Positions 2,192 through 37,259 of a stretch of 38,020 nt of DNA are shown one piece after another. Under the pieces are notes generated by a model, which had not been told where the DNA came from, made no database searches, and saw only the letters and a program-made list of their open reading frames with translations. The DNA is taken from positions 1-38,020 of the forward strand of contig PMMM01000104.1 in assembly GCA_003162245.1 (NCBI GenBank), given 5' to 3'. The translations under genes and the position numbers were made by a program. Numbering within the stretch: position 1 is the stretch's first letter; every line of letters starts with the position of its first letter. Source of the stretch: Phycisphaerales bacterium (GTDB taxonomy: Bacteria > Planctomycetota > Phycisphaerae > UBA1845 > Fen-1342).

Positions 2192-4636
2192 ATGCGCACG
2201 TTACATCCCGTCGCCACCGTCGTCACCGCCGACCTCACCGCCGCTCTGCTCGCCGTCCTCACCGCCCTCCTCGCCTCCCCAACCTCTTCCTGGGCCACCG
2301 ACATGAACGACTACCCCATCCAGCCCGTCCCCTTCACCGCCGTCCACGTCCAGGATGATTTCTGGCAGCCACGCCTCGAAACCAACCGCACCGTCACCAT
2401 CCCCTACGCCTTCCGCCGCTGCGAGGAAACCGGCCGCATCGACAACTTCGCCAAGGCCGGCGGCCTGATGAAAGGCGACTTCAAGGGCATCCGCTACGAC
2501 GATTCCGACGTCTTCAAGGTCATCGAAGGCGCCTCGTACGCCCTCGCCCTGCAGCCCGACCCCAATCTCGACGCCTACCTCGACGGCCTTATCGCCAAGA
2601 TCGCCGCCGCCCAGGAGCCCGACGGCTACCTCTACACCGCCCGCCGCCTCCGTCCCGACAACCCGCCCGAAGGCAGCGGCCCGGCGCGTTGGTCGTACCT
2701 CGCCCAGAGCCACGAGCTCTACAACCTCGGCCACCTGTACGAAGCCGCCGTCGCCCACCACCTCGCGACCGGCAAACGCACGCTCCTCGACGTCGCCCTC
2801 AAGTCCGCCAACCTCGTCTGCCGCGAATTCGGCCCCGACGCCCGCCACGACGTCCCCGGCCACCAGGAAATCGAGATCGGCCTCGTCAAGCTCTTCCGCC
2901 TCACGCACGACGAGCGCTACCTCAACCTCGCCCGCTTCTTCCTCGACCAGCGCGGCCGCCCCGAGGGCCACAAGCTCTATGGCGACTACGCGCAAGACCA
3001 CATGCCCGTCGTCGACCAGGACCACCCCGTCGGCCACGCCGTCCGCGCCGCCTACATGTACAGCGGCATGGCCGACGTCGCCGCCCTCACCGGCGACGAG
3101 CGCTTCATCCACGCCATCGACCGCATCTGGGAGAACATGGTCACCAAGCGCCTCTACCTCACCGGCGGCATCGGCGCCCGCCACGGCGGCGAAGCCTTCG
3201 GCGACGAATACGAGCTCCCCAACGCCTCCGCCTACGCCGAAACCTGCGCCGCCATCGCCAACGCCCTCTGGAACGAGCGCATGTTCCTCCTCCACGGCGA
3301 CGCCCAGTACATCGACGTCCTCGAACGCGTCCTCTACAACGGCTTCCTCGCCGGCGTCTCGCTGGGCGGCGACCGCTTCTTCTACGTCAACCCGCTCGCG
3401 TCCTTCGGCACCGCGACGCGCCAGCCCTGGTTCGACTGCGCCTGCTGCCCGACGAACGTCACGCGCTTCCTGCCCTCCATCCCCGGTTACATCTACGCCG
3501 TCCGCGACGACGTCATCTACGTCAACCTCTTCATTGGCGGCCAGGCCAAGATCTCGGTGAAAGGCCAGACGGTCACGCTCACGCAGGAGACGCGCTATCC
3601 CTGGGACGGCAAGATCAAGCTCACGGTAGCGCTGAAGGACCCCGCTCATTTCACCATCATGCTCCGCATTCCCGGCTGGGCTCGCGGTCTACCTGTTCCG
3701 AGCGACTTGTACCGAGATTCAGACCCGACAACTGACCTGCCGCGGGCCATCATCAACGGCGAGCTCCTGCTGGTCTGTGGACGGGGCGGCGGGTTCATGC
3801 CTATAGGTCGAACGTGGGAGAATGGCGATACGGTCGAATGGAACCTCGCGATGCCCATCCGCCGCGTTGTCGCAAACCCGTCCCTCAAAGACGACGCCGG
3901 CTACGTCGCGCTCGAGCGCGGCCCCATCGTCTACTGCGCCGAAGCTGTCGACAACCACAACCACGCCCTGAATCTCGTCCTCCCCGACGACAGTAAGTTG
4001 CAGCCGGAACATCGCCCCGACCTCCTCGGCGGCGTAACGGTTCTGCGCGGCCCTGCCACCGCCCTGCACCGCTCCGCCGACGGCAAATCAACCGAAACCA
4101 CGCCCGCCGAGCTCGTCGCCGTGCCATACTACGCCTGGTGCCACCGCGATGCCGGCGAAATGGCCGTCTGGCTCGCCCGCGACCCCAATGTCGCCCGCGC
4201 GCCGTCGCCGCCCACGCTCGCGACCGGCGCCCGCCGCAGCGCCTCCCACACCCACGACGAGCTCTCCGCGCTGAACGACCAGATTGACCCCGACAACTCA
4301 AACGACCATGCCATCCCGCGCTTCACCTGGTGGGACCACAAGGGCACGACCGAGTGGGTCCAGTACGACTTCGAAAAACCCACCCAGGTCAGCGCGGTCG
4401 AAGTCTACTGGTTTGACGACACCGGCGTCGGCCAGTGCCGCGTCCCCCGGTCTTGGCGCGTCCTATACCGTGTCGGCGACGACTGGAAACCGGTCGCCGC
4501 CGCCAGTGAGTATGCCGCGAAACGCGACACCTTCAACCAGGTCTCTTTCGATCCGTTCGAGACCTCCGCCCTCCGCCTCGAAGTCCAACTCCAAAGCGAC
4601 TTCTCCGGCGGCATTCTGGAATGGACTGTGCGCTAA
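2192..4636 (+). CDS. Secreted GH127-family (DUF1680) beta-L-arabinofuranosidase-like hydrolase
   Basis: An 814-residue protein. Residues 1-36 form a signal peptide (basic MRTLHP, Ala/Leu core, ending near SSWAT). The alpha/alpha-barrel follows with YAETCA (Glu350, Cys352) and the family hallmark FDCACCPTNVTRF (Cys418/Cys419). In bifidobacterial HypBA1 the equivalent Glu and Cys residues bind zinc, and one Cys is the nucleophile that releases L-arabinofuranose. The last 120 residues resemble an F5/8-type sugar-binding domain (STRAND-rich, WVQYDFEKPTQVSAVEVYWF). The start at 2192 is preferred over 2150 because of the signal peptide, the AAAGGA at about 2176 and the -10 at 2146. Codons for about residues 500-550 lose the strong C-ending bias of the flanks. 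The substrate is inferred from the family and may differ. The gene converges on the ABC exporter with a 14-bp gap. Confidence 0.85.
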   Translation: MRTLHPVATVVTADLTAALLAVLTALLASPTSSWATDMNDYPIQPVPFTAVHVQDDFWQPRLETNRTVTIPYAFRRCEETGRIDNFAKAGGLMKGDFKGIRYDDSDVFKVIEGASYALALQPDPNLDAYLDGLIAKIAAAQEPDGYLYTARRLRPDNPPEGSGPARWSYLAQSHELYNLGHLYEAAVAHHLATGKRTLLDVALKSANLVCREFGPDARHDVPGHQEIEIGLVKLFRLTHDERYLNLARFFLDQRGRPEGHKLYGDYAQDHMPVVDQDHPVGHAVRAAYMYSGMADVAALTGDERFIHAIDRIWENMVTKRLYLTGGIGARHGGEAFGDEYELPNASAYAETCAAIANALWNERMFLLHGDAQYIDVLERVLYNGFLAGVSLGGDRFFYVNPLASFGTATRQPWFDCACCPTNVTRFLPSIPGYIYAVRDDVIYVNLFIGGQAKISVKGQTVTLTQETRYPWDGKIKLTVALKDPAHFTIMLRIPGWARGLPVPSDLYRDSDPTTDLPRAIINGELLLVCGRGGGFMPIGRTWENGDTVEWNLAMPIRRVVANPSLKDDAGYVALERGPIVYCAEAVDNHNHALNLVLPDDSKLQPEHRPDLLGGVTVLRGPATALHRSADGKSTETTPAELVAVPYYAWCHRDAGEMAVWLARDPNVARAPSPPTLATGARRSASHTHDELSALNDQIDPDNSNDHAIPRFTWWDHKGTTEWVQYDFEKPTQVSAVEVYWFDDTGVGQCRVPRSWRVLYRVGDDWKPVAAASEYAAKRDTFNQVSFDPFETSALRLEVQLQSDFSGGILEWTVR

Positions 4637-25535: not shown

Positions 25536-26114
25536 ATGTCGAGCGTGTCAGGTTTCGGGTTCGCTGCGTCGGCGCAGGCGGCTGGGCGTCCGCGCAACGG
25601 ACACACGGGGCAGCCGGATCGCATGGATCAGGCGTCCAACATGGCGCTCCAGGCGATGGGCGTCGATTCCAGCAAGGCGGCCTCGATCACCAAGCAGATC
25701 GAAGCGGCGATGCAGGCGGCGGCCAAGAACAGCGACGGCTCCAGCGACCCGCGTGCGGCGGCACAGCGGGCGGTCAGCGACATCTTGACCAAGAACGGGA
25801 TCGACCCGCAACAGTTCAAGACTCAAATCCAGGCCGCGATGAAGAAGCTGGGTGGAAAAGGGCGACCGGCGGCCAAACCGGCCGGGGGCGGCCAGCCTCC
25901 ATCCGGCCAGGCGGCGACATCGAAACAGGCAACCAGCAGCCAGAGCACCGCGCAAGAAGAGGCCGCGGAGACGTACGCCGACACACTCAAAGAGGCGCTC
26001 GCCGGGGACCAGCAGGCGATCGCGAAGCTCGCGGCGGAGCAGCAGGCCGCGGACAACGGCGCGGCGGCTGACACGACGCAGGGCAACGCCAGCGGAGTAA
26101 ACATGACCGCCTGA
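25536..26114 (+). CDS. Hypothetical Ala/Gln-rich protein
   Basis: A 192-residue protein I cannot assign. It has a strong ribosome site, AAAGGAG, about 8 nt before ATG 25536 and a good terminator after its stop, so it is a real single-gene unit. Residues 29-100 are helical and have an odd resemblance to short EF-hand-like spacing (MDQASNMALQAMGVDSSKAA, then SDILTKNGIDPQQFKTQIQA). The centre (about 108-140) is a Gly/Pro/Gln/Ser-rich linker and the end is Ala/Gln-rich helix. There is no signal peptide or membrane segment and no Cys. It may be a cytoplasmic or surface-associated structural protein. It lies between the two 102-bp direct repeats. Confidence 0.72.
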   Translation: MSSVSGFGFAASAQAAGRPRNGHTGQPDRMDQASNMALQAMGVDSSKAASITKQIEAAMQAAAKNSDGSSDPRAAAQRAVSDILTKNGIDPQQFKTQIQAAMKKLGGKGRPAAKPAGGGQPPSGQAATSKQATSSQSTAQEEAAETYADTLKEALAGDQQAIAKLAAEQQAADNGAAADTTQGNASGVNMTA

Positions 26115-26179
26115 GCGCTCACGATTCCGACTGGTGCGCTGAGCTGAGAGCCGTCCGGCCAGCGCCGAACGAACCCCCG

Positions 26180-26216
26180 AAGGCCGGCGACCTTGCACGA
26201 GGTTGCCGGCCTTCTC
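26180..26216 (+). terminator. Rho-independent terminator of the 25536 gene
   Basis: The stem AAGGCCGGCGACC (26180-26192) pairs with GGTTGCCGGCCTT (26201-26213), followed by CTCT. It starts 66 bp after the stop codon. Confidence 0.8.
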
Positions 26217-26262
26217 TGATGGCAGCGAGAACTGCGTGGCGGGTTCGGGTCAGTTGGCACCC

Positions 26263-26364
26263 ACGCGGCGCCAGGGGCAGATGAGCAGGACGGTTGCGGC
26301 GGCCAGGAGGTGGTAGGCGAGGCATGCGACGACGAGAAGCGGGCGGATTTGTTGGGCCGCCGCG
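26263..26364. repeat. 102-bp direct repeat, right copy
   Basis: Second copy of 25242-25343. On the minus strand it lies in a 63-codon frame (26250-26441) encoding LLVVACLAYHLLAAATVLL, a single possible membrane segment. I see no ribosome site for it and do not call a gene. Confidence 0.8.
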
Positions 26365-26438
26365 AGCAGCCAGTCGCGGCCGAGCGGCAGGGAATGCGGG
26401 CCGCGGGGGCGACTGCGGCCGGGCGGGCGTGTGGTTCG

Positions 26439-26462
26439 CACTGCTCAAGAGCAGTGGCACAC
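26439..26462. repeat. Palindromic repeat, family A, copy 1 (intergenic)
   Basis: The stem CACTGCTC-AA-GAGCAGTG followed by GCACAC. The 24-bp core is identical in four places between 26.4 and 27.7 kb. Confidence 0.9.
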
Positions 26463-26545
26463 GGCGGCTACGGTTTTCGACAAGGGCGCGGGCTCGACGG
26501 GAACGGCCGCGCGACCGTATCGTGAACGCGGGCGGCAAGGAGACC

Positions 26546-26611
26546 GCTTCCTGACGGGCGCGGTTCGGATCGCACTGCACGACGGCGCTTCCTGACGGGC
26601 GCGGTTCGGAT
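26546..26611. repeat. Two 25-bp direct repeats with 41-bp period
   Basis: Copies at 26546-26570 and 26587-26611 are identical, starting GCTTCCTGACGGGCGCGGTT. The unit contains a weak CCGC...GCGG inverted repeat. It lies just upstream of the methyltransferase ribosome site and may contain its promoter region, though no clear -35/-10 is seen. Confidence 0.75.
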
Positions 26612-26664
26612 TGCTGGGCGCGGCGCGGAGAACGTGGTGCGCGACGCACAAGCAAGGTGAGGCG

Positions 26665-27603
26665 ATGGAATTCAGGAATTCGTACGAAGATGACGCGTAC
26701 GCCGCGGCGTATGCGAAGCTGGAGTTTCCGGGGACGTACTACCTCGCGTTTCGGGATTTGCCGGAGATTTTGGGGCGGCACGTGAGCGGGGAGCGGGCGC
26801 CGGGTTCCGCGTGCGGGACGGGGAAGAAGGCGCTGGATTTCGGGTGCGGGACGGGACGGTCGACGCGGTTCCTGCGGAAGCTCGGGTTCGACGCGGTCGG
26901 CGTGGACATCAGCGAAGAGATGGTCGGGCGGGCGCGGAAGATCGACCCCGAGGGCGATTACCGGCTGGTTGCGGACGGGGAGTTGCGGGAGGTGGAGCAA
27001 CCGGGGCGTCCGCCGATATCGGCGCGGCCGTACGACCAGCAGGGATGCCGGCGGACACGCGAGGATAGCGAACACTGCTCAAGAGCAGTGGCACACGGCG
27101 ACGGCCGACACGGGGGTCGGCGGGTACGCGAGGGCGGCGGGGAGCACTGCTCAAGAGCAGTGGCACACCGATCGGTCGCGGACGGCGGGTTCGACCTCGT
27201 GCTCGCTGCGTTCCCGTTCGACAACATCCCGACCGCGGAGAAGAAGATCGCGCTGTTTCGCGGGCTGTCGGCGGTACTGAACGCGGGCGGGCGGATCGTC
27301 AATCTGGTGTCGTCGCCGGAGATTTATCTGCACGAGTGGGTGTCGTTCACGACGAAGGACTACCCGGAGAACCGGCAGGCGAAGTGCGGCGACGAGGTGC
27401 GGATCATCAACCTGGCGCTCGGCGACCCGCGGCCGTGCGTGGACATCATCTGGCCGGACGCGGACTACCGCGCGGTGTACCGGCGGGCGGGGCTGGCGGT
27501 GGTGGAGATGTGCGCGCCGCTGGGGCGGGCGGACGAGCCGTACGCGTGGGTGAACGAGACGCGGATCGCGCCGTGGGTGGTGTACGTGCTGGGGAAGGGG
27601 TAG
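26665..27603 (+). CDS. SAM-dependent class I methyltransferase with two in-frame palindromic inserts
   Basis: A 312-residue protein. The Rossmann motif I is ALDFGCGTGRSTRFL (56-70), with VGVDISEEM (79-87) as the acidic second strand, and FDLVLAAFPFDNIP (176-189) as the motif IV region. In related methyltransferases the DGEL-type loop (103-107) leads almost directly into DGGFDLV. Here about 60 residues intervene (about 111-171), containing two copies of EHCSRAVAH, each encoded by a family A palindrome (27073-27096 and 27145-27168). Both keep frame. The substrate is unknown. AGGTGAGG precedes ATG 26665. If the insert is tolerated it would sit as a loop on the edge of the SAM fold; it may also have inactivated the enzyme. 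Confidence 0.8.
   Translation: MEFRNSYEDDAYAAAYAKLEFPGTYYLAFRDLPEILGRHVSGERAPGSACGTGKKALDFGCGTGRSTRFLRKLGFDAVGVDISEEMVGRARKIDPEGDYRLVADGELREVEQPGRPPISARPYDQQGCRRTREDSEHCSRAVAHGDGRHGGRRVREGGGEHCSRAVAHRSVADGGFDLVLAAFPFDNIPTAEKKIALFRGLSAVLNAGGRIVNLVSSPEIYLHEWVSFTTKDYPENRQAKCGDEVRIINLALGDPRPCVDIIWPDADYRAVYRRAGLAVVEMCAPLGRADEPYAWVNETRIAPWVVYVLGKG
27073..27096. repeat. Palindromic repeat, family A, copy 2 (inside methyltransferase)
   Basis: The same 24-bp core as the other three copies. It is read in the plus frame as HCSRAVAH, residues 137-144. Confidence 0.9.
27145..27168. repeat. Palindromic repeat, family A, copy 3 (inside methyltransferase)
   Basis: The same 24-bp core, 72 bp (24 codons) after copy 2, so again read as HCSRAVAH (161-168). 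The upstream flank GGCGGGGAG is shared with copy 4. Confidence 0.9.
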
Positions 27604-27614
27604 ACGGCGGGGAG

Positions 27615-27638
27615 CACTGCTCAAGAGCAGTGGCACAC
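27615..27638. repeat. Palindromic repeat, family A, copy 4 (between convergent genes)
   Basis: It fills most of the 39-bp gap between the stops of the methyltransferase gene and the YkgJ-like gene. The stem could act as a bidirectional transcription stop, although there is no T-run. Confidence 0.9.
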
Positions 27639-27642
27639 GGGG

Positions 27643-28407
27643 TCAGGTCAGGCAGCCGGCGAAGACGTTTTCGCCACGGGCCCAGCGCTCGGGGGCGTCG
27701 GGCGTGTCGAGGACGCGACGGAGGGCGTGGTGCAGCTCGTAGGAGTTGCCGTCGCGTTGAGCGGCCCGGCAGCCGTCCCGCAGGCCGACGGCGACGCACA
27801 ACGCCGCGGCGGCGCCGAACTTGTCGGTCGGCACGAGGTCGCGGTTCGGGGCGCGCGTGAACTCGGCGGCGCACTTTTCCTGCGAAGTGGACAGGAAGCC
27901 GGCGCAGGCCAGCGGGCGGACGGGGTGGACGCGGCAGTTGCCGTCGGTGGTGAGCAGGGCGCACGGGATGAGGCGGGCGATGTAGTCGGCGCGCGGCAGG
28001 GCGGCGGCCAGCTCCGCGTTGGGGTCGAGCCGGGCGCGCAGCTCGCCCAGGGCGTCGGCGGAGAGGCGGTCCCGCAAGTAGTGCGCGATCGCGAAGACCT
28101 CCGGCGGGGCCACGGTCACGGCGGTATGGCAACAGAACGCACAGCCGGGGCGACAGGCGTGCCGGGCGGCGAGCGGGGACTGCTGGATGGTGTGCAGCGC
28201 GAGGCGGTGCGCCTGCGCTGTCATTTCTGTGAGCTCGGCGGCGGGCGCCGCGCGGCTCAAGAATGTCGTGACGATGTGCTCCGCCGCGCGGCCGGCGTCG
28301 TACAAGACTTGTTGCAGACCCGAGAGCGCGGGGGACGGCGAGCGATTGTCGCCGGGTGCAGGCCGGCGCCCGCGTTCGCGTTTCTGGCGTTCACGTCTGG
28401 CGGACAT
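27643..28407 (-). CDS. YkgJ-family Cys-cluster (zinc/iron-chelating) protein
   Basis: A 254-residue protein. After a charged N-terminus and a helical section come CRPGCAFCCHTAVTVAPPE (about 99-117), the CxxCxxCC cluster and following acidic residue typical of the YkgJ/UPF0153 group. Later come NCRVHPVRPLACAGFLS and further Cys to the end (LCVAVGLRDGCR). These proteins probably bind zinc or an iron-sulfur cluster; a biochemical role is not established. The start is set at ATG 28407, because the upstream in-frame ATG at 28458 overlaps a TATAAT -10 element and could not be in the transcript. It is convergent with the methyltransferase gene. Confidence 0.8.
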   Translation of the reverse strand: MSARRERQKRERGRRPAPGDNRSPSPALSGLQQVLYDAGRAAEHIVTTFLSRAAPAAELTEMTAQAHRLALHTIQQSPLAARHACRPGCAFCCHTAVTVAPPEVFAIAHYLRDRLSADALGELRARLDPNAELAAALPRADYIARLIPCALLTTDGNCRVHPVRPLACAGFLSTSQEKCAAEFTRAPNRDLVPTDKFGAAAALCVAVGLRDGCRAAQRDGNSYELHHALRRVLDTPDAPERWARGENVFAGCLT

Positions 28408-35429: not shown

Positions 35430-37259
35430 TCATTCCGCCTTCAGCCGCTGCACGACGCCGGCCTCGCCCACTCGGGCGACCGGGTACACGTTCTGCCGTG
35501 CATCGGCGTAGGGCGACCGGCGGTAGAAAAAGTCCAGGCGCTGCTGCGGGTTTCGGGCAAATGCCTCGTCCCACGCCAAGCGCTCCGCGAACTCCCGGCG
35601 CAGCGCGGCGTCCTCCGCCGACATCTGCCGGGCCAGCGGCTCCATCACATACGCCTCCGCGTATTCCTTCTGCTCGAAGATGGCGTTGAAGAGGCCCCAG
35701 GCCACCAGCGAATCCGGCCCGGCCGGCTCCAGCAGATTCACCGCGAGCTTGGCACGCGGTTGATCGAGGGGGACAACGACCGTGCCGGCGACGAAATGCC
35801 GCCGCTCGCGGATGGACGTGGACTGGTAGTGGGGGAGCTGCCGGCCTTCGTGCGGGCGGTCGGTGAACGAAACGTCGTCAAAGCGATGGGACTCCACGTC
35901 CAGATCGTGGGCCTGCCGGAGACGAAAGAAGCGGATGCCGTGCACCTCGAGGCGCTGGATAGCGTCTGACCACTGCGGCGGGATGAGATAGGCCGCCGGC
36001 GGCGTCACTGCGAATGTGGGCTCGATCCCATCGAACAGCGGAATCTCCACGTCCAGCGGCGTCTGGGTGTACTCGATGACCGGGTCGCCGGTGATCTCGC
36101 TCTCGTGCAGCACCTGCTGATAGGCGTGGTAGGTGACCGGGTGGTGCTGGTCCGTGTGGGCAAAGGCGAGCGCGACGCGGCCGTCGTCCCCGCCGCCGTG
36201 TGCGGCGACGCACTGGGCGTCGGCAGCGCGAATGGCGGCGCGCAGCGTCTGGGGCCGCGCGCCGAGCGTGCTCAAGGTGTGGCGCAGGAAGTCGTACGTA
36301 GCGCGGACGCGCCGCGCGTATGGGTTCCAGGAATAGGTTTCCACAAGCAGGGCGGGGCGGTTGCACGCCGCGGGGTAGCCGGTGGAGAAGCGCGGGCTCA
36401 TCGACCAGCCGGCCATGTATCCTTCTGTTGGGGCCTTGCGGTCCCGCAGTTGGCCGTAGGGGAGCGTGGCATAGCCGTCGGCGGTCAGGGCCGCCAGCAC
36501 GTCGGGGAGAAGCTGCGCGCGCACCCAGCGGGCGACCGGTTCGGCCGTCTCCGGCCCCTGCGTGGCGTCGTAAAATAGGTCGTACCGGTGTCTTTCGCCG
36601 TCGGTGGTGTGCGTGTCGATGAAGAGATCGGGCTGCCAGGCGTTCCACAGCCGGAGCCAGGCCTGCGTCTCGACCGCATCCGCCTTCACATAGTCGCGGT
36701 TGAGGTTCAAGTTGGTCGCGTTGGTGCGCCAGCCCATCTCGCGCGGTCCGTTCTGGTTGATCCGGCCGTAGAGGCTGCGGCGCTCGTGCCCGTCGACGTT
36801 GTAGATCGGGATGATCAGCACGTTGACGTGCGCGAGGAGGTCGGCCTGCGTGCCGGTGATGATGATGTCGCGCGCCAGCGCAAGCGACGCGTCCTTTCCT
36901 TCGCATTCCCCGGCGTGGATGCAGTTCTGAACGAGCACAAGCGGCTTGCGGCTCTGCTGCGCCGCAGCAGGCGTAAACGCCGCATCCGTGGAAAGCACGA
37001 GCAGCGGGAGCGCCCGCCCCTCGCCGCTGACGCCGAAGGTCAGGTAGCGGGCGTACGGCGAGGCGGCGGCCAGCCGGCGACAGAAGCTGACGGCCTCATC
37101 GTACCGGCCGGTCTCGTCGTAATTGGTTCGCTCGGCGTGGAGGCGCCAGGTCTCGGGCAAAGCTTCGGGGCTCAGATAAGACGTCCGCGGCGTCGTTTCG
37201 CAGCCAAGGGTTGCCAGCACAAGCGACGCGAGGACGGGGGTCAGACAGGGCCGCTTCAG
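35430..37259 (-). CDS. M14-family zinc carboxypeptidase, predicted lipoprotein
   Basis: A 609-residue protein. Zinc site: HAGECEG (His115, Glu118) and DTHTTDGE (His217), with the Asn-Arg pair in LNLNRDY for substrate carboxylate binding; this is the M14 HxxE...H pattern. It would trim C-terminal residues of peptides outside the inner membrane. From CTG 37259 it begins MKRPCLTPVLASLVLATLGC, a lipoprotein signal with lipobox ending at Cys20, and GGAG lies about 9 nt upstream. The longest canonical start, GTG 37220, would cut the signal in half, so a rare CTG start is favoured. The C-terminal 250 residues are a family-specific extension. It lies 46 bp after the TolB-like gene, so they probably form an operon. 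Confidence 0.85.
   Translation of the reverse strand: MKRPCLTPVLASLVLATLGCETTPRTSYLSPEALPETWRLHAERTNYDETGRYDEAVSFCRRLAAASPYARYLTFGVSGEGRALPLLVLSTDAAFTPAAAQQSRKPLVLVQNCIHAGECEGKDASLALARDIIITGTQADLLAHVNVLIIPIYNVDGHERRSLYGRINQNGPREMGWRTNATNLNLNRDYVKADAVETQAWLRLWNAWQPDLFIDTHTTDGERHRYDLFYDATQGPETAEPVARWVRAQLLPDVLAALTADGYATLPYGQLRDRKAPTEGYMAGWSMSPRFSTGYPAACNRPALLVETYSWNPYARRVRATYDFLRHTLSTLGARPQTLRAAIRAADAQCVAAHGGGDDGRVALAFAHTDQHHPVTYHAYQQVLHESEITGDPVIEYTQTPLDVEIPLFDGIEPTFAVTPPAAYLIPPQWSDAIQRLEVHGIRFFRLRQAHDLDVESHRFDDVSFTDRPHEGRQLPHYQSTSIRERRHFVAGTVVVPLDQPRAKLAVNLLEPAGPDSLVAWGLFNAIFEQKEYAEAYVMEPLARQMSAEDAALRREFAERLAWDEAFARNPQQRLDFFYRRSPYADARQNVYPVARVGEAGVVQRLKAE

Follow-up and report, generated by a model that had tools for sequence, protein, structure and literature searches.

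According to the main text of PMC6006769, the described REPs of the superfamily carry a GTAG or GTGG foot and a few subclasses are atypical. Canonical REPs and REPtrons (RAYT/TnpA_REP), as the main texts on them put it, are 7-8 bp hairpins whose 5' foot bears a tetranucleotide, and they occur in many, mostly extragenic copies; the RAYT gene is flanked by such hairpins, and the hairpins differ with the RAYT (PMC2817692, PMC6006769, PMC8266576). In REPINs, the hairpins stand in close inverted pairs (PMC3116915). Intragenic REPs with GTAG or CGTC tags are present in Opitutus terrae and Rickettsia conorii, where they are read in frame in unrelated genes, sometimes twice per gene and in tRNA synthetases among others, and the CGTC tag is stated for the RPE-4/6 type repeats of R. 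conorii (PMC3733652). Rickettsia palindromic elements (RPEs) are in-frame palindromic inserts in protein loops.

Here we describe repeat A, found in a contig of 38,020 nt from a Phycisphaerales bacterium (the window). Judged from its sequence, repeat A is a variant REP element that has a cognate RAYT and GTGC at its foot. The unit consists of CACTGCTC-AA-GAGCAGTG followed by GCACAC, and it is repeated exactly over 24 nt at 26439, 27073, 27145, and 27615 of the window, as the initial annotation had reported; 100 shuffles of the window contained 0.03 matches to the 24-nt unit on average. That annotation described a 24-bp palindrome. The exact repeat is indeed 24 nt long, but only 18 nt of it are palindromic (8-bp arms around AA), and GCACAC is a one-sided tag. 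On the other strand (GTGTGCCACTGCTCTTGAGCAGTGC) the unit reads 5'-GTGTGC-CACTGCT-CTTG-AGCAGTG, and a predicted hairpin of 7 bp with a 4-nt loop, which could fold on either strand, starts directly after GTGTGC. GTGC is thus found at the 5' foot of the hairpin, both in the copies and beside related RAYTs, where canonical REPs have GT[AG]G. In the broad sense repeat A has the features of a REP: it is a dispersed, hairpin-forming palindrome, it is mostly outside genes, and a cognate RAYT is flanked by it. No match at the gathering score was found in Rfam for positions 26000-28000 of the window.

The core is not confined to the window, in keeping with the mobile palindrome that had been proposed. 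The genome of this bacterium (G000; 4.76 Mb, fragmented, with the window as one contig) contains 28 exact cores, while a reversed-pattern control gave none, and 34 copies of core plus tag were found with at most one mismatch. About 35 copies were examined, and about six of them are inside recognizable genes (two in a methyltransferase, two in ManC, and one each in ArgRS and CysRS). Most copies are therefore outside genes, although this split is approximate, as it is based on 3-kb loci with open reading frames judged by codon-position GC. Of 397 genomes sampled from the class, 35 contained the 21-mer of core plus tag. In a phylum-wide sample of 392 genomes it was found in G000 only and in none sampled outside the class, and those carriers that have a name are metagenome assemblies of Phycisphaerae or Planctomycetota. 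Copy number ranged from 0 to 312 among the genera of one family. In contrast to canonical REPs as their main texts describe them, a single sequence is nearly identical across many genera of the class; the loop adjoining the tag is AA in 167 of the 176 tagged copies of the relatives. Of 53 close pairs in these relatives, 44 are inverted, with a spacing of mostly 49-59 bp, which is the arrangement of REPINs. G000 differs from REPINs in that its copies are mostly single or direct tandems, with one close inverted pair (C264:25858/25928). No match to repeat A was present in a collection of viral contigs, which therefore offers no hint that phages spread it.

Three genomes of a single genus contain just one or two pairs, and there a gene is flanked by two inverted repeat A copies about 600-650 bp apart. 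Its product is a RAYT (REP-associated tyrosine transposase), with a match to NF047646 above the cut-off, an HUH motif (EHVHVLL), and a tyrosine motif (YIHANP). G000 itself encodes an intact RAYT of 185 aa at C250:1577-2119, within a cluster of repeat A copies at 1376-2221. It matches NCBIfam NF047646 (REP_Tyr_transpos) with 93.7 bits against a cut-off of 80 and is 74% identical to the RAYT query from that genus; a search against solved structures by sequence gave no hit at an E value of 1e-3. A search with Pfam Y1_Tnp alone had found three other RAYT-like genes with no repeat A nearby, and the conclusion drawn from it, that there was no cognate RAYT, was rejected when a class-wide protein search found the C250 gene.

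When the flanks of 30 RAYT genes were scanned, 10 had exact repeat A as the flank (G000 and nine other genomes). The tag of the 5' copy points outward in these, and where the gene is complete the 3' copy also points outward. Seven RAYTs have repeat A on both sides with the tags outward (G041, G108, G098, G003, G082, G014, and G289), and their 5' copy starts 31-39 nt before the gene, except that in G108 the exact 5' copy is at 87 and a copy with one mismatch is nearer to the gene. Repeat A is also 5' of the RAYT gene in G073 and of the truncated one in G004, and in G000 and G073 extra copies are located between the gene and the outward 3' copy. Five relatives (G017, G084, G060, G065, and G071) have the same arms with other loops of three or four nt, while in four others (G018, G146, G158, and G008) the stems differ but the foot is still GTGCCA. 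The hairpin thus changes together with its RAYT, as has also been described for other RAYTs (PMC2817692).

Across the genomes, a RAYT of at least 60% identity goes together with repeat A (13 of 16 genomes with such a RAYT contain the repeat, compared with 22 of 381 without; p ~9e-13, a value that ignores the kinship of the genomes). Several observations count against this link. In the sister species the nearest RAYT reaches no more than 51% identity, although 26 tagged copies are exact, and in G007, with its 312 copies, the best RAYT is at 49%; we assume that the cognate RAYT was lost in these genomes or falls in assembly gaps at repeats. Furthermore, the repeat-flanked genes do not form one clade in the RAYT tree, in which the flanked/unflanked label changes three times and many branches are weak.

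Other RAYT loci were also noted. L166 (G000:C204:818-1850) is a RAYT-like gene with its own 22-nt inverted repeats (GAAAACGGGACATCACTGATTT), which are unrelated to repeat A. L167 (G000:C4) and L168 (G000:C59) are RAYT-like remnants, both broken by the same longer interspersed repeat (NLAVARRSFVCYVGHGG in one frame). At L200 (G098:C376) a squalene-hopene cyclase-like gene (ORF 2504-4501, minus strand) has the RAYT element at its 3' end, and the last codons of this gene run into the terminal hairpin (ACATALEQCW). L215 (G289:C6) belongs to a genome from a different family in the class, with 35 identical copies of repeat A and a RAYT only 61% identical. Because an identical repeat is beside such a divergent RAYT, either the hairpin would be far better conserved than the RAYT protein, or the pair would have moved horizontally.

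Repeat A is very probably a REP that is copied by the C250 RAYT, with a few copies surviving as translated sequence in protein loops. The repeats and RAYT flanks themselves establish the family and its tie to a RAYT, and by analogy with described systems we infer that this RAYT binds, cuts, and copies the repeat with GTGC as the guide. This enzyme, of the HUH/Y1 type, most likely binds the hairpins as single strands; it would cut beside the hairpin, with the foot as guide, and pass copies, singly or paired, into new sites. Most of the surviving copies are between genes. A few may have landed in loops tolerant of extra residues, where a net length that is a multiple of three would let them be translated. 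No target-site duplication or defined insertion end could be established for repeat A, and this counts against such copying, as do the foot, which is GTGC in place of GT[AG]G, and the single close inverted pair in G000.

Two of the four window copies are in a gene for a class I methyltransferase of 312 aa (26665..27603, plus strand, ATG at 26665 and stop ending at 27603; Pfam Methyltransf_25 and relatives). They are 72 bp apart on the plus strand (27073..27096 and 27145..27168) and are read in frame 0 as HCSRAVAH at residues 137-144 and 161-168. The 24-codon spacing and the repeated peptide had both been pointed out in the initial annotation, as had the lack of a stop in this frame; of the six frames in which the unit can be read, five are open. 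Both copies belong to an insert of 61 codons, residues 111-171 (26995..27177, plus strand), whose limits agree with those first proposed. The insert is lineage-specific. It is absent from all 14 orthologs, which are from other genera in the same and other families of the order and in which residue 110 joins straight to residue 172 (window numbering); no distant ortholog sharing it was found. The two repeat A units make up only 16 of its 61 residues. Between them, in frame, is one copy of repeat B, CGGCCGACACGGGGGTCGGCGGGTACG (27102..27128, minus strand). Repeat B (CGGCCGACACGGGGGTCGGCCGCTACA) has 24 matches in the genome, most of them ending in CGCTACA, which corresponds to TGTAGCG plus a hairpin on the other strand, and it can be classified as a GTAG-type REP. 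Thus the insert is by its composition a mosaic of two repeat A copies, one repeat B copy, and further sequence, and since both kinds of repeat are inside it, two REP families have met in one methyltransferase loop.

The methyltransferase of the sister species (G001) is 87% identical overall. Its insert at the same place has a different make-up, with one repeat A copy and three copies of the repeat B palindrome, and the counterpart of our copy at 27145 has a GA loop. Repeat B variants with GGTAC fill this insert. The loop probably took in two repeat A copies and one GTAG-type REP, and would have continued to change once the two species had separated. There is also a second in-frame insert at residues 41-53 (26785..26823, plus strand; about 11 residues net, SGERAPGSACGTG), which is absent in the sister species and resembles a third repeat (AGCGCAAGCGACGGGTTC). 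A 40-nt direct repeat (CGCTTCCTGACGGGCGCGGTTCGGAT...; window 26545-26625, spacing 41) was observed near the gene, and it also follows the methyltransferase of the sister species.

In G000, repeat A is also read in frame in CysRS, ArgRS, and ManC, and three different reading frames are used by the intragenic copies. CysRS has one copy, read as ATALEQC, and ArgRS has one copy in a linker of variable length among the relatives. ManC has two tandem copies 33 bp apart (TAQEQ.H), while the sister species has one copy and ten other orthologs have none (the insert is absent in 10 of 10). The third repeat has 24 matches in the genome within two mismatches, including sites in ArgRS (G000:C249:7059-7076), in CysRS (C106:4205-4222), at C244:45169-45252, and at 36877-36894 of the window. 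In both synthetases it adjoins repeat A, and the ArgRS of the sister species has it in tandem (SEPGAQATG-like peptides). Like the intragenic REPs of O. terrae and R. conorii, repeat A is in frame, sometimes twice per gene, and tRNA synthetases are among its hosts. In contrast to those REPs, two differently tagged families are present in one insert here, and empty and half-filled states are visible in the orthologs.

About 11-12 of about 27 copy sites are common to the sister species with homologous flanks, including those in CysRS, ManC, the nuo genes, and the methyltransferase and the intergenic copy at 26439 (26439..26462, plus strand; core 26439-26456 plus tag GCACAC). The remaining sites, including the RAYT cluster, have no counterpart among the 30 best copies of the sister species. 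In the sequences compared, in-frame inserts are lineage-specific and copies turn over between sister species. Alternatively, local tandem duplication and gene conversion could have enlarged the methyltransferase insert without new transposition, the mobility being ancient. As a full account this is doubtful, since about half of the sites are without a counterpart among the sister-species copies and the unrelated repeat B landed in the same loop. However, the copies at 27145 and 27615 have 34 identical nt in common, including 10 nt of the 5' flank, tandem units recur elsewhere in the genome, and the two ManC copies correspond to one in the sister species. The copy at 27615 is a recent and possibly local one, because it has no counterpart following the methyltransferase in the sister species and shares these 34 nt with the copy at 27145. 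Some of the tandem copies probably arose through gene conversion or local duplication, and such a process may well complement copying by the RAYT by accounting for the doubling step.

The copy at 27615..27638 (plus strand) is exactly in a 39-bp gap between convergent genes, as had been noted, with the methyltransferase stop (27603) on one side and the end of a minus-strand open reading frame at 27643 on the other. REPs often acquire terminator or mRNA-stabilizing roles, and the copies might be such hairpins at gene ends, with this one serving both genes. We consider this very unlikely as the explanation of the family, because the copy is followed by GGCACACGGGGTC with no T run on either strand, so that no intrinsic terminator was found at 27615, and because other copies are inside the methyltransferase, CysRS, ArgRS, and ManC or upstream of genes. 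A terminator or stabilizer function would at most be a secondary role. It is also most improbable that repeat A is an immobile regulatory or structural site of the host (for a repressor, a nucleoid protein, or a replication or segregation factor) that is kept by selection. The near invariance of the 21-mer and its AA loop across many genera, set against up to 40% divergence of the RAYT, would fit such a site, but copy number varies from 0 to 312 within a single family, congeneric species differ in where their copies are located, copies are in unrelated genes in three frames, and at the RAYT flanks the repeat is in fixed positions and changes with the RAYT.

The resemblance to RPEs that was first suggested holds for the in-frame, translatable copies in loops of unrelated proteins, which the five open frames would favor, but membership of that family, with persistence dependent on translation, can be practically dismissed, as repeat A has no CGTC tag (GTGC on one strand and GCAC on the other), is short, is linked to a RAYT, forms inverted REPIN pairs in relatives, and is mostly outside genes. 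To our knowledge, no RAYT is associated with RPEs. Compared with RPEs by description, repeat A is not an RPE, and its family is REP/RAYT. The idea that the palindromes survive by being translatable is reasonable for the intragenic copies; because most copies are outside genes, it explains which of the intragenic copies survive and not the persistence of the family.

REPs in frame within genes are known already; what looks new is a GTGC foot and the lineage that carries it, and no description of this foot was found in the main texts of the REP/RAYT papers cited here. The repeat A lineage, its tag sequence, the composite insert, and some of the host genes also appear to be undescribed. We tentatively suggest that a distinct Phycisphaerae-type RAYT/REP lineage uses a GTGC guide, and that in this genus several unrelated REP families keep entering the same loops and lengthen essential enzymes such as tRNA synthetases step by step. 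In another RAYT, a GTAC foot in place of GTAG shifts the cut site from CT/CA to GA/GT (PMC8266576). If this rule holds here, a RAYT with a GTGC guide should cut at GC or GA, and the change of guide would have given the entire family new targets. With its GTGC foot, this system extends RAYT/REP pairs to a planctomycete class, where the guide model can be tested with a natural variant. Orthologs without the insert, sister species with one copy or two, and two families sharing one loop together provide a clean natural record of REP insertion into genes. Peptides such as HCSRAVAH, TAQEQWH, CATALEQ, VPLLLSS, and LLKSSGT in planctomycete proteins can be translated REPs and not motifs, and should be read with caution.
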